This document shows positions 5,281 through 40,028 of a DNA stretch of 40,324 nt, in pieces. The stretch covers positions 1 to 40,324 of the forward strand of contig NZ_QPJE01000019.1 in NCBI RefSeq assembly GCF_003337245.1, in the 5' to 3' direction. Origin of the DNA: Halanaerobium sp. MA284_MarDTE_T2 (GTDB taxonomy: Bacteria; Bacillota; Halanaerobiia; Halanaerobiales; Halanaerobiaceae). Position 1 is the first letter of the stretch. Each line of letters opens with the position of its first letter. The notes beneath the pieces were generated by a model. The model saw only the letters and a list, made by a program, of their open reading frames with translations. It was not told the origin of the DNA and did no database searches. A program made the position numbers and the translations under genes.

Positions 5281-5838
5281 TCAATAAATAGGTTTTCCTT
5301 TCCCATTTTCAAACCAATCTAGAATCTGCTGAAAATTAGTAACTGGAATTCTATTCCCCTGACTAATAATCTTTCTAATCATATTATTTCCTTTTTTATA
5401 ACTAATATAATCTTCTAGATAAGCATCATATATAATACTCAAAGTTGTTTTCAATGGCATATTATGCCTTTTAATGTATGGCATAACATCACTAAGATTA
5501 TCACTACATACTGTTCCAGAAAAAATTTCAGCGATAGTTAATACTGCAGCTTCTCCTTTTGCCTGATATTCTCCATTGTCTTTAAACCTTCTTTCAAGTT
5601 TAGCAAATCTTCTAATCTCATTTAGCTTAGTAATTTGATAAATTTTAAATACTTTTTCTTCAATCATTTTTGTTAATTCAGTATAAAGTTCAGATTTTAA
5701 AGTAGCTTCTTCAAGTACATGGGTTGGAATAATTATGTTATCTTTATATAATAAAGGAAGTAAATAATAAAGTCCATCAGCAGAATAAAGATTGCCTAGA
5801 ACACAGTTATCAATAATCAAAGGAGGATTCTTCAACAA
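5281..5838 (-). CDS. PIN-like domain protein (putative RNase toxin/effector)
   Basis: This 185-residue protein starts at TTG 5838, justified by a strong AAGGAGGAGG 8-9 nt upstream, so it overlaps the end of the ImmA-like gene by 29 nt. It shows PIN-fold acidic positions: D10 in LIIDNCVLGN, E96 in KGEAAVLTIAEI, and D113/D117 in CSDNLSDV, in the usual order. PIN proteins cut RNA with Mg2+. Translational overlap with an Xre/ImmA pair suggests a toxin or effector controlled by proteolysis of the Xre partner. The substrate is unknown. It is somewhat longer than standalone VapC (about 130), so it belongs to a larger PIN group. Confidence 0.7.
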   Translation of the reverse strand: MLKNPPLIIDNCVLGNLYSADGLYYLLPLLYKDNIIIPTHVLEEATLKSELYTELTKMIEEKVFKIYQITKLNEIRRFAKLERRFKDNGEYQAKGEAAVLTIAEIFSGTVCSDNLSDVMPYIKRHNMPLKTTLSIIYDAYLEDYISYKKGNNMIRKIISQGNRIPVTNFQQILDWFENGKGKPIY

Positions 5839-6580
5839 TATCCTCGACCTCCTCCTTTACCAGTATGTCTTTGATTGATAAACCAACATCAGCTAAATAT
5901 TCTTTATAAGCATTTTCTGTTATTTTATTTTGTTCATAATTGTCATTTAATATTTCAAGATAACTCTGAGGTATATAAATATCATTTGTAGGAAGAATTA
6001 ACTCTCTAGAATATCCAAGTTTAGCAAAGGTAGAATTTAAATGAATATTAGAAAACTCATTATATTGATCTTCATCTATTAATTCTAAAACTTTTAATCT
6101 AACCAACATCGCTTTAAAACTAACTTTAAAATAATTTTGCGCTTTAATAATTTTATTGATATTAATTACTTGATCACCTACAATATTAAAAAATTTATAT
6201 ATTCCATCTTCAGGCATTAAAAAATGAACAGCAAAATAATCAGCTAGAGTTTCACTTTCATTCCTTTGATTTTTAAACTTAAAAGTATCACAAATAGTCC
6301 CGTTTAATTCTTTATCAAAATAATAATGATAAATTTCATGAGCAGCTGAAAAATGCTGTCGCCCCAGAGTATGGGCACTGTTTATAAAAAATAAATAGTT
6401 GTTTTTATAATGGAGAAAATAAGCAGATATTGAAGAGTTGTTTAAAGGTTTTTTGGTTAATAAAATATTTAATGATTCAATTAGTTCAAAAATATTAGTA
6501 ACCGGTTCTTTAAAAAATCCAAGTTTTTCTCTTATTTGATTAGCTCGTATTTTGGCTTTTTGCTCTAATAAATTGGGCAT
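5810..6580 (-). CDS. ImmA/IrrE-family metallopeptidase
   Basis: This 256-residue protein starts 3 nt after the Xre gene's stop, behind GAAGGTGATTAATT. HEIYH at 81-85 gives the zinc ligands and catalytic Glu; NESETLADYFAVHFLMP (about 107-123) supplies the third ligand and the conserved helix. The family (ImmA of ICEBs1, IrrE of Deinococcus) cleaves Xre-type repressors in response to a signal. Here the natural substrate is the Xre protein encoded immediately upstream. A helical C-terminal extension (about 150-256) is of unknown role. Function as a de-repressing protease is inferred from the family and the operon. Confidence 0.85.
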   Translation of the reverse strand: MPNLLEQKAKIRANQIREKLGFFKEPVTNIFELIESLNILLTKKPLNNSSISAYFLHYKNNYLFFINSAHTLGRQHFSAAHEIYHYYFDKELNGTICDTFKFKNQRNESETLADYFAVHFLMPEDGIYKFFNIVGDQVININKIIKAQNYFKVSFKAMLVRLKVLELIDEDQYNEFSNIHLNSTFAKLGYSRELILPTNDIYIPQSYLEILNDNYEQNKITENAYKEYLADVGLSIKDILVKEEVEDIVEESSFDY

Positions 6581-6582
6581 AA

Positions 6583-6933
6583 TTAATCACCTTCTTTCAT
6601 TATTTCCTGAAGATCATTGAAATTAAATAATAATTTTTTTGTCCAGTTTATATTTTCTTTTTCTTTATCGTTAAGACCATCAGTTCTAAAAGCAATAGAT
6701 ATTTCCTCAAACTCCTCCGGTTCCTCTAAAAAATACATTAAAGAATAACCATAAAGATCAGCCAATTTTTTTAGTAATAAAGAATCAATTTTTTTCTGTC
6801 CTCTTTCAATGTTAGAAATAGTTACTCTATTAATACCCGTCAATTCTTCAACTTCTGACTGTGTAAAAGCAGATGACTCACGAGCCTCTTTAAGCCTTTT
6901 TCCAATCTCAGTAAAAGTTAATTTGGAAGCCAA
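6583..6933 (-). CDS. Xre-family repressor of the ImmA/PIN operon
   Basis: The start is placed at TTG 6933, 5 nt after AAGGGGTGG; an in-frame GTG at 6942 overlaps that site and is less likely. The 116-residue product has a clear helix-turn-helix (EIGKRLKEARESSAFTQSEV, then ELTGINRVTISNIERGQKK). An acidic tail (EEPEEFEEISIAFRTDG) follows; the IAFR segment resembles the region ahead of ImmA domains in fused Xre-ImmA proteins, suggesting a split version. It is first in a three-gene operon and probably autoregulates it. Confidence 0.85.
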   Translation of the reverse strand: MASKLTFTEIGKRLKEARESSAFTQSEVEELTGINRVTISNIERGQKKIDSLLLKKLADLYGYSLMYFLEEPEEFEEISIAFRTDGLNDKEKENINWTKKLLFNFNDLQEIMKEGD

Positions 6934-6986
6934 TATACCCACCCCTTTGTTTTATATTATTACATTATCATTTTATTATAGTTTAA

Positions 6987-7006
6987 TTGTAGCATTATAG
7001 TTACAA
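6987..7006. promoter_or_regulatory. Candidate operator upstream of the Xre gene
   Basis: TTGTA (6987-6991) and TACAA (7002-7006) form a dyad with a 10-bp spacer, 54 bp upstream of the Xre start and beside several TATAAT-like sequences. Xre repressors bind such short dyads. This is suggestive only. Confidence 0.3.
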
Positions 7007-7065
7007 AAATACAACATTTTTTTATAATATTTTGTAGAATATTTATATAAAATTATTTGTTTAAT

Positions 7066-7084
7066 ACTAAAATTCCCTATTATT
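7066..7084 (+). repeat. 19-bp direct repeat flanking the AbiEii fragment, left copy
   Basis: ACTAAAATTCCCTATTATT is identical to 7703-7721. The pair encloses the truncated AbiEii gene and may be a scar of the event that brought in or cut that gene. It stands next to the 7-bp palindrome at 7092-7106. Confidence 0.75.
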
Positions 7085-7114
7085 GCAGTACAAGATTTAA
7101 AATCTTAATGAACG

Positions 7115-7144
7115 AAAAGTGTAAAATATTATTTGACATTCACA
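7115..7144 (+). repeat. 30-bp perfect direct repeat bounding the island, left copy
   Basis: From AAAAGTGTAAAATATT at 7115 to CATTCACA at 7144 this is identical to 17649-17678. Inside is a dyad of the form TGTnAAATA-T-TATTTnACA. The copy lies 31 bp beyond the stop of the AbiEii fragment. Possible roles are a recombination site, an operator duplicated with a module, or homology used for island exchange. Confidence 0.8.
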
Positions 7145-7175
7145 CTTACAATAATTAATAAACTTTTCTTTGGTT

Positions 7176-7679
7176 TTATCTATAATTATCTTCAATTGCA
7201 TTCCATAAATTAATTATCTGTTCTTCCAAATTAGAAAACTCGATTTCCTTTGCATATTGAAATTTATTCCTATATCTATTCCAATGACTTAATATAATAT
7301 CACTTTTGAAAATATCAATGATTATATTTTTGTCGTTCTTAATAGCTTTATAAGTCCCTCGATTTTTAGCCGTTTCAGTTAAAGAAGCTGCTAACAATTC
7401 TATATTTATCTTTTCTTTAAGTTCTAAAGTTAAAATATATATATCGTAAAAATCACGCATTCTAGTGTTTGTTTTTGACCTGCTAACTATAGTTTCCAAT
7501 TTTTCTGCCAGTAAAGTCTCTAAATTATAAGATAAAATTTCAATTTTTTTATCTTCAAATAATAATTGATATCTATAATTGATTTCAGATGGAGTCAATT
7601 TATCTCCTGTTGTTAAGTCTATTTTCAAAGGTATCCTGGCTGTATATTTGTTGTATAATAAAATCCCCGGGAATTGCAA
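7176..7679 (-). pseudogene. 5'-truncated AbiEii-type nucleotidyltransferase toxin
   Basis: The frame (about 167 codons) matches the second half of AbiEii toxins: KIDLTTGDKLTP, ILSYNLETLLAEKLETIVSR and RMRDFYDIYIL, the characteristic core around the AEK and RDFYD motifs. The N-terminal segment with the GS...D.D nucleotidyltransferase site is absent, and no AbiEi antitoxin gene precedes it. The frame opens with a TTG lacking a ribosome site, only 24 bp from one copy of a 19-bp direct repeat. It is almost certainly inactive as an enzyme. An internally translated C-terminal fragment cannot be excluded. Confidence 0.75.
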
Positions 7680-7702
7680 AGTAGTATTCCAGTAAGTTGC
7701 AA

Positions 7703-7721
7703 ACTAAAATTCCCTATTATT
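7703..7721 (+). repeat. 19-bp direct repeat flanking the AbiEii fragment, right copy
   Basis: Identical to 7066-7084. It lies just upstream of where the AbiEii reading frame is cut off. Confidence 0.75.
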
Positions 7722-7772
7722 TCTCAAAAACTCACTGCAACACAGGGAGCACTTTGTTGAGGTAAAATAAAA

Positions 7773-7808
7773 AACTCCCACTAGAAACTTTAAGTTCTAA
7801 TGAGAGTT
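7773..7808 (-). terminator. Terminator of the three-gene unknown operon
   Basis: On the minus strand AACTCTCATTAGAACTT pairs with the sequence ending TTCTAGTGGGAGTT, followed by TTTTATTTT. The upstream arm of the stem reaches the stop codon of the last gene (7808). It is the same hairpin family as 5072-5110 and 17599-17632. Confidence 0.85.
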
Positions 7809-8263
7809 CAATTTAAAATATCAGATATCTCAAATTCATCTTGAGAGTCATTATAATTGAAATAAGATATTATATTAACTAGATAATCACTTACTGCCCG
7901 CTCAGCATCTGAATTATCAAAATAATTATAAGCTGCAATTGCTCCATTGTTCATTAAATACCGGGCCTGCATTGACATGGTATATAATTGTTTATAACTA
8001 TGAGCAGTGCTTCTATTTGTATTCTTTTTTACTAGATCAGATCTAATCTTATGAATGGATTTTTTAACATTATTGCTATTCTTATATTTAACAGCACTTA
8101 CCATTTCAGTAGTTGATAACCACGCCTCAACAAAATGCAGTGCAGCATAAAAACTTACCGTGATTACCCAATCACGATAGTGAACCTGCTTTTGATCAGA
8201 TAATTCTTTACTTAAAATTGTATTATGCCAGGCCTGTTTAAGATGTTCCTTTTCAGCTGCCAT
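7808..8263 (-). CDS. HEPN-like helical protein, third gene of unknown operon
   Basis: This 151-residue helical protein starts behind AAAGGGTGATTGG. It resembles HEPN-superfamily proteins in layout: HLKQAWHNTILSKEL, then DWVITVSFYAALHFVEAWL, then a long helix ending KKNTNRSTAHSYKQLYTMSM and QARYLMN. The usual RX4-6H RNase motif is not evident (only NRSTAH, an R-X3-H arrangement), so catalytic activity is doubtful. It may be a structural or binding HEPN. It is co-directional with two unrecognised genes at 4- and 14-bp gaps and ends in a terminator. Whether it is a toxin or an immunity/defence component is inference. Confidence 0.5.
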   Translation of the reverse strand: MAAEKEHLKQAWHNTILSKELSDQKQVHYRDWVITVSFYAALHFVEAWLSTTEMVSAVKYKNSNNVKKSIHKIRSDLVKKNTNRSTAHSYKQLYTMSMQARYLMNNGAIAAYNYFDNSDAERAVSDYLVNIISYFNYNDSQDEFEISDILN

Positions 8264-8267
8264 CCAA

Positions 8268-8774
8268 TCACCCTTTAAAAATTATATAATATTTTTCAGA
8301 TAAAACGTCTTTGGGGCTAAGATATTTAGCAGGTAAATATTCAAAGTTAAAATTTTCAGTTCCCATTACTTCAAAAATAGTATCTTCAATGTTAAATAAC
8401 TGTTCCATAAGTTCAGCATCATATTTATCATTCGTAGTAAATATTTTAATGTCATAATAGCCATTATCATATTTAGCATAAATAGATTCTACTCTATCTA
8501 TTTTTGAAAACAAACTAACTACAATACTTATTTCTTTCTCTTCTTCAGCTACGGTAGTTTGTACCTTATAAATATTAGATAAATTTTTTAGTAAATTTGA
8601 AGTAGAAAAATTAAATTGGTCAGTAATTTTTAACCCTTCTGTAATACGCTGAAAAGAATTTATATTATCTCTTATCTGAGCAGTTAAATTGCTGTAATCA
8701 AAGAACTCACTTACATAAGAAATACTATTATTAATTGAATAATTTTCAGGCAATTTTGAAGTTGTTCTTTCCAT
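8268..8774 (-). CDS. Unknown protein, second gene of the operon
   Basis: This 168-residue protein has a strong ribosome site (AAGGAGGTAGAATATA) before ATG 8774. I do not recognise the family with confidence. The N-terminal half is helical and hydrophilic. The C-terminal half looks alpha/beta: SIVVSLFSKIDRVESIYAKY, then DIKIFTTNDKYDAELMEQLF, then EDTIFEVMG and FNFEYLPAKYL. No signal peptide, transmembrane segment or Cys cluster is visible. Tight spacing on both sides argues that it works with the 217-residue protein upstream and the HEPN-like protein downstream. Confidence 0.6.
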   Translation of the reverse strand: MERTTSKLPENYSINNSISYVSEFFDYSNLTAQIRDNINSFQRITEGLKITDQFNFSTSNLLKNLSNIYKVQTTVAEEEKEISIVVSLFSKIDRVESIYAKYDNGYYDIKIFTTNDKYDAELMEQLFNIEDTIFEVMGTENFNFEYLPAKYLSPKDVLSEKYYIIFKG

Positions 8775-8788
8775 TATATTCTACCTCC

Positions 8789-9442
8789 TTACTGATCCGG
8801 TAAATTACTAATTATTTCTTTAATTTTTTCACTGGAGATTTCTAAGTATTGAAAGATATCACTTTTACTTAAATCCCTATCATCATCTGGAACTAGATTT
8901 CTATCTACAACAATATTCAAATAATTAGCATCAGCTTTTAAACGCAGCCACTGATTAACTTTTTCATCTTCCCAGACATCTTCAATCAATGAATGAATTT
9001 CTTTCTGTTTTTCCTGGCTCTGTAAATTATTGCTGAAGTAATGCTTATCTAAAAATTTTAAAGCATTATTATTAAATTCTTTTTTAGCATTAATTACTAA
9101 CCCAATTCTATTAATCGACCAGTTATAATCGTTAAGCGAAACTGCTGCAATTTTTTTAGCAAAATCAACTGCTTTATTAATTTTAGAAGAAACTTCACCC
9201 TGGATAATAAAGTTAGCACGAAGCAAACTCAGCTGAAACTGATATTCTCCATCCTGTGAAGACATAATAATTCGAGGTACTTCAGGAGGGGTCTGATCAT
9301 TTACTGGCAGAACTGATTTTTGCCCGCCATCAAATATATTAGCAAAACTTTTATCAAAAGAATCAGCTATTTTAAAAAGATTAGATGACTTCCAAAAATT
9401 ATAAAATAATACCACCTGTACCTGCTGGATATTAGCATCCAT
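8789..9442 (-). CDS. Unknown protein (faintly TIGR04255-like), first gene of the operon
   Basis: This 217-residue soluble protein starts behind AGGGGGAAAAGCT with a good promoter 100 bp further up. The stretch PPEVPRIIMSSQDGEYQFQL (about residues 52-71) followed by SLLRANFI and a region of alternating strands recalls the sporadically distributed TIGR04255 proteins, but this is a weak impression. A charged helical C-terminus follows (DDDRDLSKSDIFQYLEISSE). It opens a three-gene operon placed between a SIR2 defence gene and an AbiEii fragment, so a role in defence is plausible by association only. Confidence 0.55.
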   Translation of the reverse strand: MDANIQQVQVVLFYNFWKSSNLFKIADSFDKSFANIFDGGQKSVLPVNDQTPPEVPRIIMSSQDGEYQFQLSLLRANFIIQGEVSSKINKAVDFAKKIAAVSLNDYNWSINRIGLVINAKKEFNNNALKFLDKHYFSNNLQSQEKQKEIHSLIEDVWEDEKVNQWLRLKADANYLNIVVDRNLVPDDDRDLSKSDIFQYLEISSEKIKEIISNLPDQ

Positions 9443-9540
9443 AGCTTTTCCCCCTAAGTTTAAACTAGCATTATAAAAGCTTAGTAAATAATGCAGTCTG
9501 TAAAATTATATCGATAAATTACAATTACAACCTTTATTAA

Positions 9541-9569
9541 ATTATACCTCAAATAAAGACTGCAATCAA
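9541..9569 (-). promoter_or_regulatory. Promoter of the three-gene unknown operon
   Basis: On the minus strand TTGATT (9569-9564), a 17-bp spacer and a perfect TATAAT (9546-9541) precede the ATG at 9442 by about 98 bp. This gives the operon its own promoter, independent of the SIR2 gene, which is closed by a terminator at 9642-9666. Confidence 0.7.
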
Positions 9570-9641
9570 TATCTATTTCAAAAAAATTCCATTATTTAAT
9601 TAGCGACTGATATATTATTCAGTTCTACTGTCCTGCCGAGC

Positions 9642-9666
9642 AAAAAACTCTGACTAAATTAGAGCT
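9642..9666 (-). terminator. Probable terminator of the SIR2 gene
   Basis: On the minus strand AGCTCT...AGAGTT forms a short stem (about 6 bp, one G-T pair) followed by a T-run. It lies 25 bp beyond the SIR2 stop. The stem is weak. Confidence 0.5.
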
Positions 9667-9690
9667 GAAACACAGTTTAATAATGATTTT

Positions 9691-12600
9691 TTAAATATCC
9701 ATAGCTCTTATTCGCCCAGGACAAATCTGAGATAACTTATCCAGATAATCTCTCATTTTTGAAGATTTCTTATAATCAACATCACCATTCTCAATAAGCT
9801 CCACTAAATCTGAACAATATAAAACTGAAGGTTTATCGTATTCAAATAAACATATTAACAAATCTACAGACAACTCTGGCATATTATTAAACATTTTATT
9901 TTCAGTAAATTCTCTATAAAAAGAATTAAGACTAATATCAAATTCTTCATCTAAATTCTTAATTCTATTTATGATTTCTGAAATATACTCTTCTTTTTCT
10001 GTTAAAAATAAAAGACGAATAAGCTGTTCAAATTCTTTAGATTTCATATTTGAATACGAACTGATCCTTTCCAAACTATAATCTTTAAGCCAATTCTCCC
10101 AAATTGTTTCTCTAAACTTGTAAGTACCATTATCCAATTTAACTGAAATATGCTGCAAAAAATATTTCTTTAATTCATCATCTGCTTTATTGATGAATTT
10201 CTTCATCCAATCATTTTCCATAGGGTTACTAATGAAAAAAGAAATTATTTCTGCAAAACGATAAGCAAAAAATCTTTTAGGATCTTCTGACTCTAAATTA
10301 AATTTCTTGAAACAGCCTTTTATATAAAACAATAGTTTTTGGGTTAATTTTTCTGATCCGATATTACCTAGAATATAACTTTTCCAACATATACGTGCTG
10401 TTTCAACATCGTTCTTCCAGCTAAATAATATCAATAAGTTCTCTTTAACCCAGGAAGAATCAATCTCAAATAAAAAACTAATATTTTTAGAAAGAGTTAT
10501 CTTTGCTAATTGATTTTTAGAATCTTCTCCAGAAATTATTTTAGTCAAAATTTCCTCATAACCCATAAAACTCTTTTTACTGTATGGTTTATCCTCATTT
10601 TTTATTTTTATTATTTCCAGATATAGATTAATTATTCTACTAATTAGAGTATCTGAATAACTTAAAGTATCATCAGCAATTTCTTCTTTAGTAATGGTAA
10701 TTTCAAAATCAGTCCAAATCCTATCAATCAGTTGGTCTAGATCATCACTTAATTCATTAATCAGGTTACTTTTATAATTATTTAATAAATATTTAAGCAG
10801 TAATAGTAATCTCTTATTAATTTGTCCAGATTGAATTTCAATCTTTAATAGTTTACTAATTATATTTTTTAAATCTTGATCACTATAATTTTCTTTTTTT
10901 AAAGCTTCAAAAAGATAAATTATAAAATTATCATCCTTTAGATCTTCCAAATTAGAATTATAATAATCCAGTAAATTTACAGCAAATTTTTTGTTTTCAT
11001 TGGCTGCTTTTTCTGCTTCTAAATAAAAACTATGTTTACTCTCGAAATAATCTCTATCGAAGTCATAGTTTATAATAATATCAAATACTTCTTCAGACGC
11101 CATATTGCTAATTTCTTCTTCAGTAAAAGGACTTTTAAACTGCATAGTTTCACTATTTATTTCCATATGTTTAGAACTGTGGCTCCTTTCACCTTCGAAT
11201 TCTGGATAATTTAATATAATCCTGCTGATTTCATTTTCAATTAACTGATATTCTTGATCCTCTTCTACTATATAAGTTAGCAGATCAAATTTTGCAAATT
11301 CAGCAGTTTCTTTATCTTTAAAATCTGAAAGTTTATCATTACTGATAACATTTTCTAATAATTTTTTTCTACTTTCATTATCACTATTTTTATAACACTC
11401 TTTTATTAAATCATAAAGTTCAGCATTTACCATTGGGGAATATAAAAGAAAATTATTAAGTATCCAGTTAATTTTCTTATCAAAAGAATAATCATCAACT
11501 TTATTCATCATATTAATAGATAATCTCTGGATTAAGTGGGAATTGCTTTTAATCCAGTCATTTAAAACAGTAATTAGATGTTTAGAGTCTTCATTTTTGA
11601 TATATTCTAAAATATCTCTACCTAACAGAATAAAAAGATTTATATTATTATATTTAATATCCTCTTTTGAGGTTTCTTTTATATCATCAATCATAAAAGA
11701 TAATGCAGAAGATTTATTATCAGCTGCTCCACAAGCTGATAGCAGAGTAAAAGATTTTTCTAATTTCTTTTTTATAATATTTTTTAAAGCTAAAATTAAA
11801 TTATAGTTATTATTAGAGATTATTTTCCCCATTAATTCTAGTAAAAGTTTGCAATTATACTCATCTAACTCTAATATTATCTTAGACTGTAATTCCCAAT
11901 TCATTTCATCATGCTCATCAAAGGTAAAGGGAGGCATATTTTGAGTTACTAATCTTATCTCTAAAACATAATCAATGATATTTATAATTATCTGATCATA
12001 ATCCCCTTCAGAATTATGCTCAATAACACCTGACAAAATATCAATAAAACTATTTCTAACTAAATTGTTAGATTTCAAATTTTTTTCAAGAATGATTATT
12101 AGATAGCCTAAATCATTTTTAGAAAACATGTCACTATTTTTTGATAGTTTAAACAATAATTTTTGAGCAAAATCTGGATTAAGTTCTTCCTTTTCTTTAT
12201 TTAATATTTCTAAAACCTGATTTGTATTTTTAACTAAAAAATTATTACTGATCCAATTAGCAAACAATAATTTATCATCCGTTAATCTCTCTTTACTATT
12301 AAATAAATCATCCAGGTAATTATTATTATAAAACCAATTAAGCCAGCAATTAGATTCAATTTCATCAAGAAAAATTTTCAGGTTATTATCTAACTTAACT
12401 GCTGTTTCTAAATAGTTAAATTCTTCTTTTCCTACTTGATCAAATTCTTTATCTGCTATATCAAATAGTCTTTTGCGATGATCGAAAAAATCCATTTTTT
12501 TAAATTCAACTAATTTATCAAGAAGTAGATACAGGTCTTTGTGAGTTGGAGTATTAGGATATAAAATAGGGTTAATACCAAGTTCCTCAATTTCTTTCCC

Positions 12601-13284
12601 GCTTCCGTCTTCAATAAGAGCAAAATGAGCTTTTTTATTAGGCATTCCTCTTGTTAAATACCTCATAACAACATCATTCAAACTATAACCGATAAATAGT
12701 ACATTATAAGTTTCAAATAATTTTATTGCAAATTCTCTTGCAAAACCCTGGGTAAAATATGCCTGTCCAAAATCTTCATCAGTTAAAATTAAATTAGTTC
12801 TCGAATTATCTACTTCAACTGCTCCATGTAAATATACTAGCCCAGTAAAATCTTCTCCTCTTGGAAGTGCAGGAGCATAATATGGTTGAATCTCTTCTCC
12901 ATAAATATCTTTAAATGCTGTTGTGAAATGAGGATCAAAATTAGTAGTTACTAACTTTATAGAATTTTCTTTTTCAAATAATTTAATAATATTTCTGTGC
13001 AATTTATTAGGTTTCGATGAAGAATCACTGAAAATATCTCTAGCAATTTCATGAACTGCTATATCTTGATATTTAAGTCTTCCCAAATATGAATCAGGAG
13101 ACTCATTTTCTTTTCTTTTGAGTTCAGAATCACTTTTAGATTTTATGCTATCTACCAATCCCTCAAATAAAGGGAAATTTGATGGTGGCCCTTTAGAAAC
13201 ACCACTACCAGCAAAAATAACAAGTTGATTATTTTCTAAACTATTCAATAATTTTTCAGGTAATTCAATATCATTAATAATCAT
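9691..13284 (-). CDS. Large SIR2-domain defence protein (Dsr1-like)
   Basis: This 1197-residue protein starts behind AAAAGGAAGATTCT. Residues about 15-260 are a SIR2 NAD-binding/hydrolase domain: FAGSGVSKG (24-32), TTNFD (113-117), YLHGAVE (151-157, candidate catalytic His) and LFIGYSLNDVVMRYL near 200. The remaining 900 residues are predicted helical repeats without a recognised enzyme motif, probably the phage-sensing part. This layout and size match stand-alone defence-associated sirtuins (Dsr1/DUF4020-type), which deplete NAD+ when a phage protein binds the C-terminus. Activity here is inferred from the family. It lies 55 bp after the ASCH gene and may share its transcript. Confidence 0.8.
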   Translation of the reverse strand: MIINDIELPEKLLNSLENNQLVIFAGSGVSKGPPSNFPLFEGLVDSIKSKSDSELKRKENESPDSYLGRLKYQDIAVHEIARDIFSDSSSKPNKLHRNIIKLFEKENSIKLVTTNFDPHFTTAFKDIYGEEIQPYYAPALPRGEDFTGLVYLHGAVEVDNSRTNLILTDEDFGQAYFTQGFAREFAIKLFETYNVLFIGYSLNDVVMRYLTRGMPNKKAHFALIEDGSGKEIEELGINPILYPNTPTHKDLYLLLDKLVEFKKMDFFDHRKRLFDIADKEFDQVGKEEFNYLETAVKLDNNLKIFLDEIESNCWLNWFYNNNYLDDLFNSKERLTDDKLLFANWISNNFLVKNTNQVLEILNKEKEELNPDFAQKLLFKLSKNSDMFSKNDLGYLIIILEKNLKSNNLVRNSFIDILSGVIEHNSEGDYDQIIINIIDYVLEIRLVTQNMPPFTFDEHDEMNWELQSKIILELDEYNCKLLLELMGKIISNNNYNLILALKNIIKKKLEKSFTLLSACGAADNKSSALSFMIDDIKETSKEDIKYNNINLFILLGRDILEYIKNEDSKHLITVLNDWIKSNSHLIQRLSINMMNKVDDYSFDKKINWILNNFLLYSPMVNAELYDLIKECYKNSDNESRKKLLENVISNDKLSDFKDKETAEFAKFDLLTYIVEEDQEYQLIENEISRIILNYPEFEGERSHSSKHMEINSETMQFKSPFTEEEISNMASEEVFDIIINYDFDRDYFESKHSFYLEAEKAANENKKFAVNLLDYYNSNLEDLKDDNFIIYLFEALKKENYSDQDLKNIISKLLKIEIQSGQINKRLLLLLKYLLNNYKSNLINELSDDLDQLIDRIWTDFEITITKEEIADDTLSYSDTLISRIINLYLEIIKIKNEDKPYSKKSFMGYEEILTKIISGEDSKNQLAKITLSKNISFLFEIDSSWVKENLLILFSWKNDVETARICWKSYILGNIGSEKLTQKLLFYIKGCFKKFNLESEDPKRFFAYRFAEIISFFISNPMENDWMKKFINKADDELKKYFLQHISVKLDNGTYKFRETIWENWLKDYSLERISSYSNMKSKEFEQLIRLLFLTEKEEYISEIINRIKNLDEEFDISLNSFYREFTENKMFNNMPELSVDLLICLFEYDKPSVLYCSDLVELIENGDVDYKKSSKMRDYLDKLSQICPGRIRAMDI

Positions 13285-13339
13285 AGAATCTTCCTTTTAA
13301 TAAATTTTTAAAGTTAAAGATTACTCTATCTATTCTTTT

Positions 13340-13741
13340 TTACTTTACAACCGAATTTTTTTGAATAAAATCATCATCCACATACTTAAAAGATTGTGGT
13401 GCAGTGAAATTACTTAAACTATCTCTAGAAACAGCTTTCTCGTAAAGGTTTAATTTATCAATTTTCATCGCATAACCCTGATCTTTATCTTTAAAATAAT
13501 CACTAAAATAATCAAACCCAATACCAGATTCATTCTTTGTCTCCGACCAGATATTTAAAGGGGTATCATTAATTATCTTATCAATGGTAAATTCACCAAT
13601 AATCTTACCTACCGGCATAGTACAATAAATGACAACTGACTCTATTTTCTGTTTGAAAATTCTTTTTCTATACTCATATTTCTTTTCTCCAGAAATAATT
13701 TTATCTACAAATTCTGGTTTAATCGATAATAAGGCTTTCAT
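13340..13741 (-). CDS. ASCH/PUA-like domain protein
   Basis: This 133-residue protein opens MKALLSIKPEFVDKIISGEK and continues KYEYRKRIF, the hallmark start of ASCH-domain proteins. Further strands (VVIYCTMPVGKIIGEFTIDK) and the GYAMKIDKL segment follow. ASCH domains are PUA-like folds thought to bind RNA or modified nucleosides; some members are ribonucleases. The start overlaps the end of the GNAT-PUA gene by 23 nt, showing translational coupling. Such GNAT/ASCH pairs are seen as a unit in other genomes (from memory), so the loss of the partner's acetyltransferase core may leave this protein orphaned. Confidence 0.75.
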   Translation of the reverse strand: MKALLSIKPEFVDKIISGEKKYEYRKRIFKQKIESVVIYCTMPVGKIIGEFTIDKIINDTPLNIWSETKNESGIGFDYFSDYFKDKDQGYAMKIDKLNLYEKAVSRDSLSNFTAPQSFKYVDDDFIQKNSVVK

Positions 13742-14643
13742 CGGCTTGACCTTCCTTTACTATATCTTTAAATTGTTGATCAGTTAATCTAACTACTCCC
13801 CAGTAGTTAGAAGTAATTCCAAGTTCTTCAATTAATTTTTTTCTTATTAATCTTTTCTCCAGAGCAATATTATAGGTCATTTTTATTACATATAGCGGAT
13901 CAAAATCTCTATAATAACTTCTTAATTCGCTTTCATTAAAAATACTGTAATCACTGGTATAATTAAGATAATCATTTAAATCAACAAAATCACTTCCAGT
14001 TTTTACTTCCTCAACTACCGCTATAGAAGTTACTACTGAACGCCATTTAGCCTGAAACTTCCTATCCGTAGTTCTATAGATAACTATAATATCACCTGAT
14101 CTAATATTTCTAACACCACTCATTTTGCAAATATAAATCTTATGAATGCTATTTGTATGGGTTTTATCTTCTAGCAAATCAAAGTTCTCATTATTTAAAA
14201 GTGAATCTGGAAACATCTTGCTATGAAATTCAGGACGAATTGATAATATAAATTTATTGTTATTCCTACTCTTGACAAGCGGATAATTTAATAAAATATC
14301 GCCCTGGTCTTCAAATTCTTTAGTTAATACTAATTCAGTCCCGTTAACTGACTCTTTTTGTCCATGTTCTTTAAATCCATATTTCAAAAACAAATTAACA
14401 AGTGCCCGATATTTTTCAAAAACTGTAACATATACAATATCAGAATTGAGTTTCACTGCATGATCAAAGGCCTTTTTAAATATAAAAGCCCTGAACTCCG
14501 TTATCTTCTAGAATATAAGCTTCTTTCTCTGCCTTTCTAGAAAACCAATCTTCAAAACCAGCATAATCAGATTTTAAAGAATCAAAAAAAGGATCATTAA
14601 TGTCAATTTCACTAAACTTTTTTACTTTAAGATAATTGCTCAT
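13719..14643 (-). pseudogene. GNAT acetyltransferase with C-terminal PUA-like domain, broken by internal deletion and frameshift
   Basis: The original start is ATG 14643 behind CTGGGAGGTATAAA. It gives 55 residues (MSNYLKVKKFSEID..., ending NGVQGFYI) before TAA at 14476-14478. The +1 frame then resumes with KKAFDHAVKLNSD, then IVYVTVFEKYRALVNLFLKYGF, the last GNAT strands, followed by a PUA-like domain (FILSIRPEFHSKMFPDS...IRSGDIIVIYRT). Full-length relatives carry roughly 25-35 residues between these parts, including the acetyl-CoA pyrophosphate loop, which is absent here. The acetyltransferase is therefore dead. The C-terminal frame (13719-14456) could still be translated from an internal start as a free PUA domain coupled to the ASCH gene. 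Confidence 0.75.
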
Positions 14644-14712
14644 TTTATACCTCCCAGAAATATTTTTGTGATCTGTTAAATTATATTTCTAGATTAGTAT
14701 AATTTTTCCTTC

Positions 14713-16257
14713 TTATTGTAATGAAAATTTCAATAATTCCAACAACATATCCAAATTAATCCCATAACATATTAATGAAATCGAAAAAATAATAGACAAG
14801 AAAATATTTATCCAAAAATAAGCATTAAACATCATATTCTTTTTATCCATTATACTCCTGTCATCATTATTTTCACCTGTAATTTTATTGATTTCATCTT
14901 CATCTAAAATTGACTTGCAATGATCTTTAAAATTTTCATAAGTATAAATAATATGTTTTCTATTTCCCCAGATATAAATTGAATGATATAAAGTATTAAA
15001 AACTATGAAAATTCCAGATCCAACCATTATTAATTTTATAAAGTTAACGGGTATATTCCTAGTCAGATATGATAATAATACAGTAATAATTGCACCAACT
15101 ACTCCCAATATATTGCTAGTAAGCACTTTCATTAATTCCTTTATTTCACTATCCAAATCTTTAATCCTATCATAAATTTGCAATTCAATATTATTTCTTT
15201 CTTCAAAATAGACTCTCATTTTATCTTGAATATAAGTTTTAAAAATGCTCCTAGATGAGTTATAAATATTCTCAATATTATTTAAAAACTTTTCGAAAAT
15301 ATTCTCAGTTTTTGACAAGCTGGAGTTTCGAGTTATAACATTTCTTACAATTTCTATTCTATCGGGAATTTTAACATCATAGATCCAATTATATAAATCC
15401 ATTGCTATTTTTATATCATCTGCAGCAATATCTAACTTATCAATTTTATCTATATTAATTTTGATTATTTTGTACCCTTCAATAACAATAAACTTTTTTC
15501 CTTCTCTTTCCTCCAGTCTATTTGCAATAAAAATAAATATTGTCTTTAAAACAATTTTATTAAAATAATTAATTAACCACTTTTCAAGATCATTAGTTAG
15601 ACTTTTATCAAAAAAATAAAAAATATCTGGTGGTAAATTGGATAATGAACTATAGTAGCAATTTTCTTTTTGCTTTTCGATTTTATAACTTAAATTTTTT
15701 GTATCTCCATTAGATTTAATTTCTAACTGATCTAAATTATTTCCGCCTAAAATTTTAAAATAACTATTTGATAAATCAATTTCATTCTCCAATAGTAAAA
15801 TCCAGTTGTCTTTAGAAAAGTATCTGCATAATTCACTGTAGCTAATGTCATTGAGCCAACTTTTTAGTTTATCTTCAAAGAAAAATAAATAACTTTTTCC
15901 ATTAGAAATATTATGATTTCTTTTCTTTAAAAATTTATTTTTATCAATACTAATTTTAAACTCAAAATTAGTATCTGTATACCTTTCAAGTCGTTCGGTG
16001 TAAGTATCCAGTTTCTCTTTATTATAAGTAATGGTATTAAAGCTTTTATTTCTACCACTAATTTCGCTTGTATTTATATGGATAGTAACAGCTTTTTTTA
16101 ATAGTGCAAAAAGTTCATCATAATTAATATTTAATATTTCATTAATTTCATTCCCGGTTAATTGACTTGTTATTTCTAAATATTCATCATCTTCATTATA
16201 GGCAGTATCAGGTAATTTATCTAAGATATCTTTTATAATTTTCATTAAATCTCTCAT
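14713..16257 (-). CDS. Membrane protein of unknown family, partner of the NdpA-like gene
   Basis: This 514-residue protein starts behind AGGTGGTGTTTAT, 11 bp after the stop of the NdpA-like gene. About 370 N-terminal residues are soluble, mixed alpha/beta and highly charged. The C-terminal part has three hydrophobic helices: near 380-400 (ILGVVGAIITVLLSYL), 405-428 (FIKLIMVGSGIFIVFNTLYH) and 480-503 (YFWINIFLSIIFSISLICYG). No signal peptide or known catalytic motif is visible. A soluble sensor plus C-terminal helices is a layout common among membrane-disrupting defence effectors, which is the basis for the guess. The family is not recognised. Confidence 0.6.
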   Translation of the reverse strand: MRDLMKIIKDILDKLPDTAYNEDDEYLEITSQLTGNEINEILNINYDELFALLKKAVTIHINTSEISGRNKSFNTITYNKEKLDTYTERLERYTDTNFEFKISIDKNKFLKKRNHNISNGKSYLFFFEDKLKSWLNDISYSELCRYFSKDNWILLLENEIDLSNSYFKILGGNNLDQLEIKSNGDTKNLSYKIEKQKENCYYSSLSNLPPDIFYFFDKSLTNDLEKWLINYFNKIVLKTIFIFIANRLEEREGKKFIVIEGYKIIKINIDKIDKLDIAADDIKIAMDLYNWIYDVKIPDRIEIVRNVITRNSSLSKTENIFEKFLNNIENIYNSSRSIFKTYIQDKMRVYFEERNNIELQIYDRIKDLDSEIKELMKVLTSNILGVVGAIITVLLSYLTRNIPVNFIKLIMVGSGIFIVFNTLYHSIYIWGNRKHIIYTYENFKDHCKSILDEDEINKITGENNDDRSIMDKKNMMFNAYFWINIFLSIIFSISLICYGINLDMLLELLKFSLQ

Positions 16258-39158: not shown

Positions 39159-39183
39159 GAGCAGATTATTCTGCTCTTTTTTT
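39157..39183 (+). terminator. Intrinsic terminator of the Rpn-like gene
   Basis: AAGAGCAGA (39157-39165) pairs perfectly with TCTGCTCTT (39170-39178), loop TTAT, followed by a continuous T-run to 39183. The stem starts within the stop codon of the Rpn-like gene, and the T-run meets the stop of the convergent hepT. Confidence 0.9.
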
Positions 39184-39604
39184 ATTGAAAATAATCATCA
39201 ATAATTATTTCAATAAAAGTATCTATATCTTCTAAATTATTTTTTATAATATGATAAATATATTCATCATCAATTTGGTCATACAGATGTACTATTCTAT
39301 TCCTAAATTTGGTCATCTTAATAAAAGTTGATAATAGTTCTTCCTCTATTAAACCAGTATCTGCAATTATTCTAAAAGAATCAGCATTTGTATCCGGATT
39401 CCCTAATTCTTCACGAGATATTATATGATTAGCAATATCTATCATTGCTTCAATTATTGACTGTAAATTATATTTTGCAGTATCATAATTCCTATAATCA
39501 CTCAAAAAATTTTCCTTAGGAAGTTCTGCTAATTCTCTTAATTTTTTCATATTACTTCTTATGAATTGTATTTTTTCTGTTAATCGATTATAATCAAGAG
39601 TCAT
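39182..39604 (-). CDS. hepT: HepT-type HEPN RNase toxin
   Basis: This 140-residue all-helical protein carries the catalytic RX4HXY motif as RNRIVHLY (101-108), preceded by TFIKMTKF, and a conserved NLQSIIEAMIDIANHIIS helix. The family (HepT, DUF86-related) cleaves RNA and is neutralised by AMP-ylation of the motif tyrosine by its MntA partner. The gene overlaps the end of mntA by 11 nt, the standard MntA-HepT layout. All key residues are intact, so an active toxin is expected. Confidence 0.92.
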   Translation of the reverse strand: MTLDYNRLTEKIQFIRSNMKKLRELAELPKENFLSDYRNYDTAKYNLQSIIEAMIDIANHIISREELGNPDTNADSFRIIADTGLIEEELLSTFIKMTKFRNRIVHLYDQIDDEYIYHIIKNNLEDIDTFIEIIIDDYFQ

Positions 39605-40028
39605 TATGTTCCTCCTTTAAACCTTCAATATAATCTTTTTGAATTTTATATTTATATATTCTAGCATCAGGACCAAACTTTAAAACATATTCTACAAAAT
39701 CTGCTGTTTCAATTTGGTCTCTACTATATATTTTTTCTCCTTTTGTAATTATTTCATGCTTAAAAGCCATGTTAACATTATTTAAATTAATTAAATCAAT
39801 TTCATAATTTTGTATTTCTAGCTCAATTTCTCCAGCCAACTCCAATTGTTCTGATGTATTTGGAGAATCTTCAAAAAGGACGGCTAAATCTAAATCGCTA
39901 TTTTCTCTTTCATATTTGGTCCCATATGATCCAAATAAAAAAGCTGCCTTAACATTCTTTTTTTTCTCTAAAAACATTTCTATTTTCTTTTTCAATTTGC
40001 AGTCAATTTTTCTTATTACTTTATCCAT
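39594..40028 (-). CDS. mntA: MntA-type minimal nucleotidyltransferase antitoxin
   Basis: This 144-residue protein has GSYGTKYERENSDLDLAVLF (33-52): the GSxG loop with two acidic residues (D45, D47) and a third acid in YEIDLINL (D78). That is the minimal nucleotidyltransferase site. MntA antitoxins add AMP groups to HepT. It is a little longer than many (about 100-140), with a helical tail ending KDYIEGLKEEHNDS. The ribosome site AAGGAGGTTAATT is near consensus. Confidence 0.92.
   Translation of the reverse strand: MDKVIRKIDCKLKKKIEMFLEKKKNVKAAFLFGSYGTKYERENSDLDLAVLFEDSPNTSEQLELAGEIELEIQNYEIDLINLNNVNMAFKHEIITKGEKIYSRDQIETADFVEYVLKFGPDARIYKYKIQKDYIEGLKEEHNDS

Follow-up and report, generated by a model that had tools for sequence, protein, structure and literature searches.

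A far-diverged Dsr1-like protein with a SIR2 domain and a helical solenoid, a probable single-gene anti-phage protein, in Halanaerobium sp. MA284_MarDTE_T2

DSR2 of Bacillus subtilis (PDB 8wyc, 8y3m and others) has been worked out by cryo-electron microscopy, and the available text of two reports describes how a phage tail tube protein binds to its helical region and renders the tetrameric nicotinamide adenine dinucleotide (NAD+) hydrolase (NADase) active (PMC11087589, PMC11263360). For DSR1, the accessible part of a review states that phage is blocked without killing of the cell (PMC10952713). Dsr1 is mentioned briefly in the literature searched, which included few subscription journals and in which neither a trigger nor a structure of Dsr1 was found. 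In Thoeris, a SLOG domain of ThsA reads the signal from ThsB, according to the portion of PMC10973363 that is available. Here, a protein of 1197 residues with an N-terminal SIR2 domain, labelled P0001, was analysed in a stretch of 40,324 nucleotides (contig NZ_QPJE01000019.1, positions 1 to 40,324; hereafter the window) from Halanaerobium sp. MA284_MarDTE_T2, and was compared with loci and genomes labelled by L and G numbers, respectively. P0001 is probably a single-gene, Dsr1-like anti-phage protein, in which a solenoid sensor is joined to a SIR2 NADase.

The gene encoding this Dsr1-like SIR2 and helical-solenoid protein is real and intact. It is read on the minus strand (9691..13284) and runs unbroken from an ATG at 13284 to the stop at 9691 through 1197 codons, with stops throughout the plus-strand reading of the same interval. 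The open reading frame (ORF) is far beyond chance, since 50 shuffles of the window produced no open stretch longer than 132 codons. An earlier note on this DNA had given the span and length exactly and had not named the strand. A Shine-Dalgarno-like AAAAGGAAG stands immediately 5' of the ATG, and the ribosome-binding-site-like sequence AAAAGGAAGATTCT was read before it at 13285..13298 (minus). The gene is present in single copy according to a whole-genome search, and P0001 accounts for the sole Pfam SIR2_2 match in its own genome (1 match).

The SIR2 NADase-type domain is assigned to residues 1-265 (12490..13284, minus) from a Pfam SIR2_2 match covering residues 111-228 (E 1.6e-16), a structural match to DSR2 8wyc_C, and the positions of motifs and cysteines. 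The motifs of the NADase type are intact, as the earlier note had held, with GSGVS at residues 26-30, TTNFD at 113-117, YLHG at 151-154 and GYS at 199-201; GAGxS/TTNxD are given as the motifs contacting NAD in the available text of PMC12931631. All 61 aligned rows have N115, D117 and H153 in common, and these three residues score 1.00 in a 93-row alignment. In the family profile alignment, N115 pairs with the catalytic N133 of DSR2, and the LHG holding H153 aligns with the LHG of ThsA (7uxt). H153 is equated with H171 of DSR2 because the accessible part of PMC11087589 pairs the ThsA LHG histidine with that residue; the same part reports that the N133A/H171A double mutation abolishes NAD+ cleavage. 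N115 and H153 thus appear to be the residues matching DSR2 N133/H171, and D117 is not the reported catalytic residue. Of the two residues put forward earlier for mutation, the YLHG histidine was well chosen; the TTNFD aspartate is invariant (61/61), but the catalytic residue of that motif in the literature is the asparagine.

Residues 1-263 of the AlphaFold2 model superpose on DSR2 8wyc_C with a Z score of 23.4 (2.9 Å over 247 residues), and the best structural matches of the SIR2 part were DSR2 (Z 23.4), ThsA (Z 23.3) and KomC (Z 22.1). The comparison of predicted structures that had been proposed with Dsr1/Dsr2 therefore returned a DSR2/ThsA-like fold (Z about 23) and no non-SIR2 fold, with the catalytic asparagine and histidine in place on the predicted SIR2 NADase fold. 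Deacetylase sirtuins require a zinc-binding Cys4 module in the SIR2 domain. No cysteine occurs in residues 1-265 of P0001, so the zinc-binding cysteines of these enzymes are lacking, and the assignment to a deacetylase-type sirtuin was rejected. ThsA and P0001 are alike in the fold of the SIR2 domain, but ThsA has a SLOG domain whereas P0001 carries a predicted solenoid and lacks a known partner.

P0001 is kin to Dsr1 by whole-length sequence; its kinship to DSR2 lies in the SIR2 domain and the overall architecture. Dsr1 (NF041818; PADLOC PDLC02183/PDLC04167) and P0001 share an N-terminal SIR2 domain with GxGxS, TTNxD, LHG and GYS, a homologous long C-terminal region, and a single long gene (about 1275 versus 1197 residues), and P0001 could be multiply aligned over its full length with L004, an annotated Dsr1, and with relatives. 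Dsr1 was the top PADLOC family for P0001 (E 1.2e-43), and the NCBIfam Dsr1 model matched it with E 4.4e-54. The latter match scored 183.7 bits, compared with 2056 bits for the canonical Dsr1 L118, an equivalog cut-off of 1400, and 227 to 337 bits for five clade members. A low score on this model does not by itself separate the clade, because L006 groups with Dsr1 yet scores only 342 bits. A careful tree was built from 44 rows picked by hand, L036 not among them; in it, a branch supported at 100/100 set 10 Dsr1-side rows (4 canonical and 6 grouping with them) apart from the other 34, including P0001. The split of P0001 from canonical Dsr1 was repeated in a quick tree of 86 rows (from 93, after 7 near-copies of canonical Dsr1 had been dropped), which is used here solely for that split. 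The branch leading to P0001 in the careful tree is long (2.05), so that its exact place is unsure; its neighbours in the quick tree were two further long branches, and the join that brings L036, one of the two, close to P0001 was flagged as doubtful. L036 (6774-10457) encodes a 1227-residue protein that is Dsr1 according to PADLOC (PDLC04166, 1678 bits) and is not matched by the NCBIfam Dsr1 model at E 0.001. The PADLOC Dsr1 label is thus broad, spanning quite different proteins. P0001 is a far-diverged member of a large, widespread Dsr1-like clade and not a Dsr1 equivalog by the NCBI definition.

BLASTP alignments of P0001 with its relatives span the whole length of the protein (e.g. L038, 25% identity, query 2-1189, E 1e-125). 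Single-sequence searches with P0001 in genome_contigs, viral_contigs and phages gave no match, and an alignment (A2) was needed; the scan with A2 gave 424 pattern matches in genome_contigs, 306 of them relatives, and the best 80 relatives were kept (L037-L116). Record titles among these best 80 of 306 name more than a dozen phyla, and 72 of the 80 loci match to query residue 1000 or further. The same type of scan found 28 relatives in viral_contigs, many of about 1275 residues like canonical Dsr1. Matches occurred in 58 of 72,556 plasmid records, and in no record did a single place account for 80% of the query; in its own class only its own genome matched (1/59), and in a sample of the phylum the Dsr1 model matched 16 of 398 genomes, 0 above the cut-off, with 0 of 14 control genomes matching. 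When P0001 alone was searched with phmmer against solved structures, a single weak match came up (E 0.047). No match at E 0.001 or better was found among viral structures. The clade members L037-L116, mostly about 1140-1245 residues long, share with P0001 whole-length collinear homology and the invariant asparagine and histidine; P0001 differs from them in its long branch and in having the most diverged C-terminus of the 61 aligned rows. Conservation counts given here describe the rows of alignment A3 (P0001 and 60 relatives from the 80 loci, near-full-length ORFs only, with some full-length ones left out) and of A4 (54 of these 61 rows), not the whole clade, and annotations, with a few neighbours read by eye, are the basis for the defence context of the clade. 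The annotation of one clade member, L002, reads ‘SIR2 family protein’ only. In L094, L090/L032, L087, L039, and L116, the SIR2 gene is divided between two ORFs, with decay, phase variation and sequencing error being indistinguishable.

The remainder of P0001, residues 266-1197 (9691..12489, minus), is a predicted solenoid and the presumed sensor or regulator, as judged from AlphaFold2 models, HEAT/ARM fold matches and a profile match to the Dsr1 C-terminus. It had been described as a 900-residue sensor region that is unassigned, and it seemed so because Pfam has no match beyond residue 228 (E 0.1). The absence of a Pfam match holds, but the NCBIfam Dsr1 profile aligns with P0001 in three collinear stretches (profile 6-230, 578-745 and 975-1228), the last two of which fall in this region, and the C-terminal profile of 54 clade rows matched that of six canonical Dsr1 proteins with a probability of 100% (E 1.1e-44, 804 columns). 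These matches show that the C-terminal regions of P0001 and Dsr1 are homologous. The whole-length AlphaFold2 model has a mean predicted local distance difference test score (pLDDT) of 87.5 and a predicted template modelling (TM) score of 0.68, with 1107 of 1197 residues at pLDDT of at least 70. Folded alone, the C-terminus forms an almost all-helical superhelix (mean pLDDT 86.0), with a β hairpin at residues 443-471, and its top fold matches are HEAT/ARM proteins, i.e. karyopherins, CAND1, and the PP2A scaffold, which speak for the type of fold and not for kinship. With the whole model, the 42 best Foldseek rows were all DSR2 (E 2.4e-9 to 8.1e-7). DSR2 and P0001 are alike in the SIR2 NADase fold, the catalytic asparagine and a fused helical region with HEAT repeats; DSR2 differs in length (about 1005 residues), and the A4 profile gave no sequence match to its C-terminus at E up to 1. 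The suspicion that the C-terminus of P0001 is divergent was well founded, as it ranks lowest of the 61 aligned rows, a divergence greater than is visible from the lone sequence. The AINHPxG motif of the Dsr1 C-terminus is not kept: the family A-I-N...G motif reads S877-D878...S882 in P0001, and W395, W485 and W788 are replaced.

The proposal for P0001 is a self-inhibited SIR2 NADase, modelled on DSR2. The N-terminal SIR2 domain would be an NAD+ hydrolase kept inactive, probably within an oligomer; the long HEAT/ARM-type solenoid would bind a phage component produced during infection; binding would release the SIR2 domain, and the ensuing drop in NAD+ would halt phage replication. NADase activity, oligomer, autoinhibition, phage trigger and defence are thus attributed to P0001 by analogy with DSR2 and Dsr1. 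The cell may or may not die as a result, the review cited above describing DSR1 as sparing it. Several observations weigh against the proposal of a solenoid-regulated defence NADase. The first SIR2 motif of P0001 is GSGVS, compared with GAGVS in the family (Ala at 0.97). As a lone sequence, the C-terminus matches the Dsr1 C-terminal profile with a probability of 61% (E 8e-5, 170 columns), and its fold matches are of a generic HEAT/ARM type, with Z scores of 14.4 or less that helical repeats can reach without kinship. DSR2 is absent among the 50 Foldseek rows listed for the C-terminus alone, and the whole-chain superposition of P0001 and DSR2 is poor (TM score 0.22/0.26, root-mean-square deviation 36 Å for the top row). 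No experiments on P0001 or its clade were found in the literature searched. Lastly, P0001 retains 38 of 73 conserved C-terminal positions (a conserved position being the same in at least 80% of the 61 rows), the lowest of all rows (median 66), and the regulator could be degenerate.

This low retention, together with the altered A-I-N...G motif and the three replaced tryptophans, is what would be expected of a gene in decay, in which the SIR2 domain is still recognisable, the sensor arm is non-functional and defence is lost; the split genes of some relatives and the broken appearance of other genes in the island around P0001 point the same way. Such decay is nevertheless unlikely, given 1197 codons without a stop, a model that is confident over 1107 of 1197 residues, and a SIR2 domain that retains 68 of 83 conserved positions (median of the 61 rows 79) as well as the asparagine, aspartate and histidine of the active-site motifs. 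No close relative of P0001 suited to a selection test was found. It is distinctly less probable that the SIR2 domain generates a signal or acts on a substrate other than NAD+, in the manner of FAM118 or a nucleotide-signal sirtuin, or that P0001 is a regulator outside defence: the FAM118B filament (9r0p, Z 17.1) and SAMD9 (Z about 12) do match the SIR2 part of the model, but DSR2, ThsA and KomC match it better, and DSR2 has the same fused helical layout.

A multi-gene system formed with the neighbouring genes is also very improbable, marginally more so than another substrate or role. The P0001 gene sits in a defence-like island (about 5.3-19.5 kb) within a polysaccharide gene cluster, the polysaccharide functions being assigned by eye. 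The gene for an ASCH-domain protein (PADLOC PDC-M11B) lies upstream on the same strand, its end 55 bases away, and three same-strand genes begin 248 bases downstream, so that P0001 might act with the upstream ASCH/GNAT pair, which matches the PADLOC candidate system PDC-M11A/B, or with the three small downstream genes. However, the downstream module is separable from the P0001 gene: it recurs with 94.8% and 96.2% DNA identity in G026 (L150), where a transposase-like gene (by eye) breaks it up, and partly in G024; G026 contains no P0001 relative in the compared stretch or in the genome, and the homology stops at window position 9591, between the module and the SIR2 gene and 100 bases short of the SIR2 stop. 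When ORFs of at least 80 residues within 4 kb of the 80 relative loci were counted, the commonest neighbour family occurred at 9 of 80, and of the 13 flanking proteins of the window only the helix-turn-helix (HTH) repressor (6583-6942) was matched, at 1 of 80. Among 12 loci compared, L035 alone has matches to window genes beyond SIR2, namely the ImmA-like 5810-6580 (30% identity, 122 residues) and the HTH gene 562-918, though its long protein was not matched by P0001 in the 12-locus BLASTP; the other 11 have only the SIR2 gene in common with the window, L033 and L034 being cut or masked. P0001 is therefore a stand-alone gene with no conserved partner seen, in keeping with the stand-alone defence-sirtuin layout that the earlier note had recognised. 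Promoter-like sites in 7000-14800 occur at chance level (51 versus a mean of 51.9), and no operon is therefore claimed from them. Least probable of all is that P0001 is Dsr1 in the strict, equivalog sense, which the top PADLOC family favours, although that label is broad, and which the score of 183.7 bits against a cut-off of 1400 and the 100/100 branch from the 10 Dsr1-side rows oppose. The NCBI cut-off is strict, L006 on the Dsr1 side reaching 342 bits, and a wider definition of Dsr1 would include P0001.

Other features of the window and of the relative loci were recorded. PADLOC candidate system PDC-M11 (13340-14715, minus) has an intact ASCH gene and a seemingly broken M11A, whose match begins at profile position 115 of 357, with a protein-like segment before it in another frame. 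The three-gene module (7808-9442, minus) encodes proteins of 217, 168 and 151 residues without a convincing family match and may be an uncharacterised mobile or defence operon. An AbiEii-like ORF (7176-7679, minus), matching from profile position 94 on, is an apparent remnant of a type IV toxin gene. At 5281-6942 (minus), an HTH gene, an ImmA/IrrE-type peptidase and a PDC-S70-like ORF follow one another, an arrangement like that of a toxin-antitoxin or phage-repressor set, and a HepT-like/nucleotidyltransferase pair of the HEPN-MNT toxin-antitoxin type lies at 39182-40028 (minus). In L055 and L092, a methyltransferase-like gene (by eye; 1201 and 1249 residues) lies 15 and 8 bases downstream of the SIR2 relative, respectively, on the same strand, and a family with BLAST links to this gene is present near 9 of the 80 loci.

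As far as sequence and fold tell, P0001 is a variant of an already known kind of defence sirtuin and would work like a Dsr1/DSR2 effector. The earlier note was right about this kind, and erred in calling the C-terminal region unassigned and in its choice of the TTNFD residue. Dsr1-like proteins may be under-annotated, since the clade members tested (5/5 plus P0001) fall below the cut-off that names Dsr1. It is possible, though rather doubtful, that the solenoid of P0001 is free of the constraint common to the aligned Dsr1-like clade and may read a trigger unlike that of any studied Dsr1/DSR2, for example a structural protein of the phages that infect this bacterium of low guanine-plus-cytosine content; if this were true, the Dsr1-like clade would be one NADase with many different sensors. 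How one NADase pairs with many phage signals would emerge from setting the conserved SIR2 domain against the variable arm.

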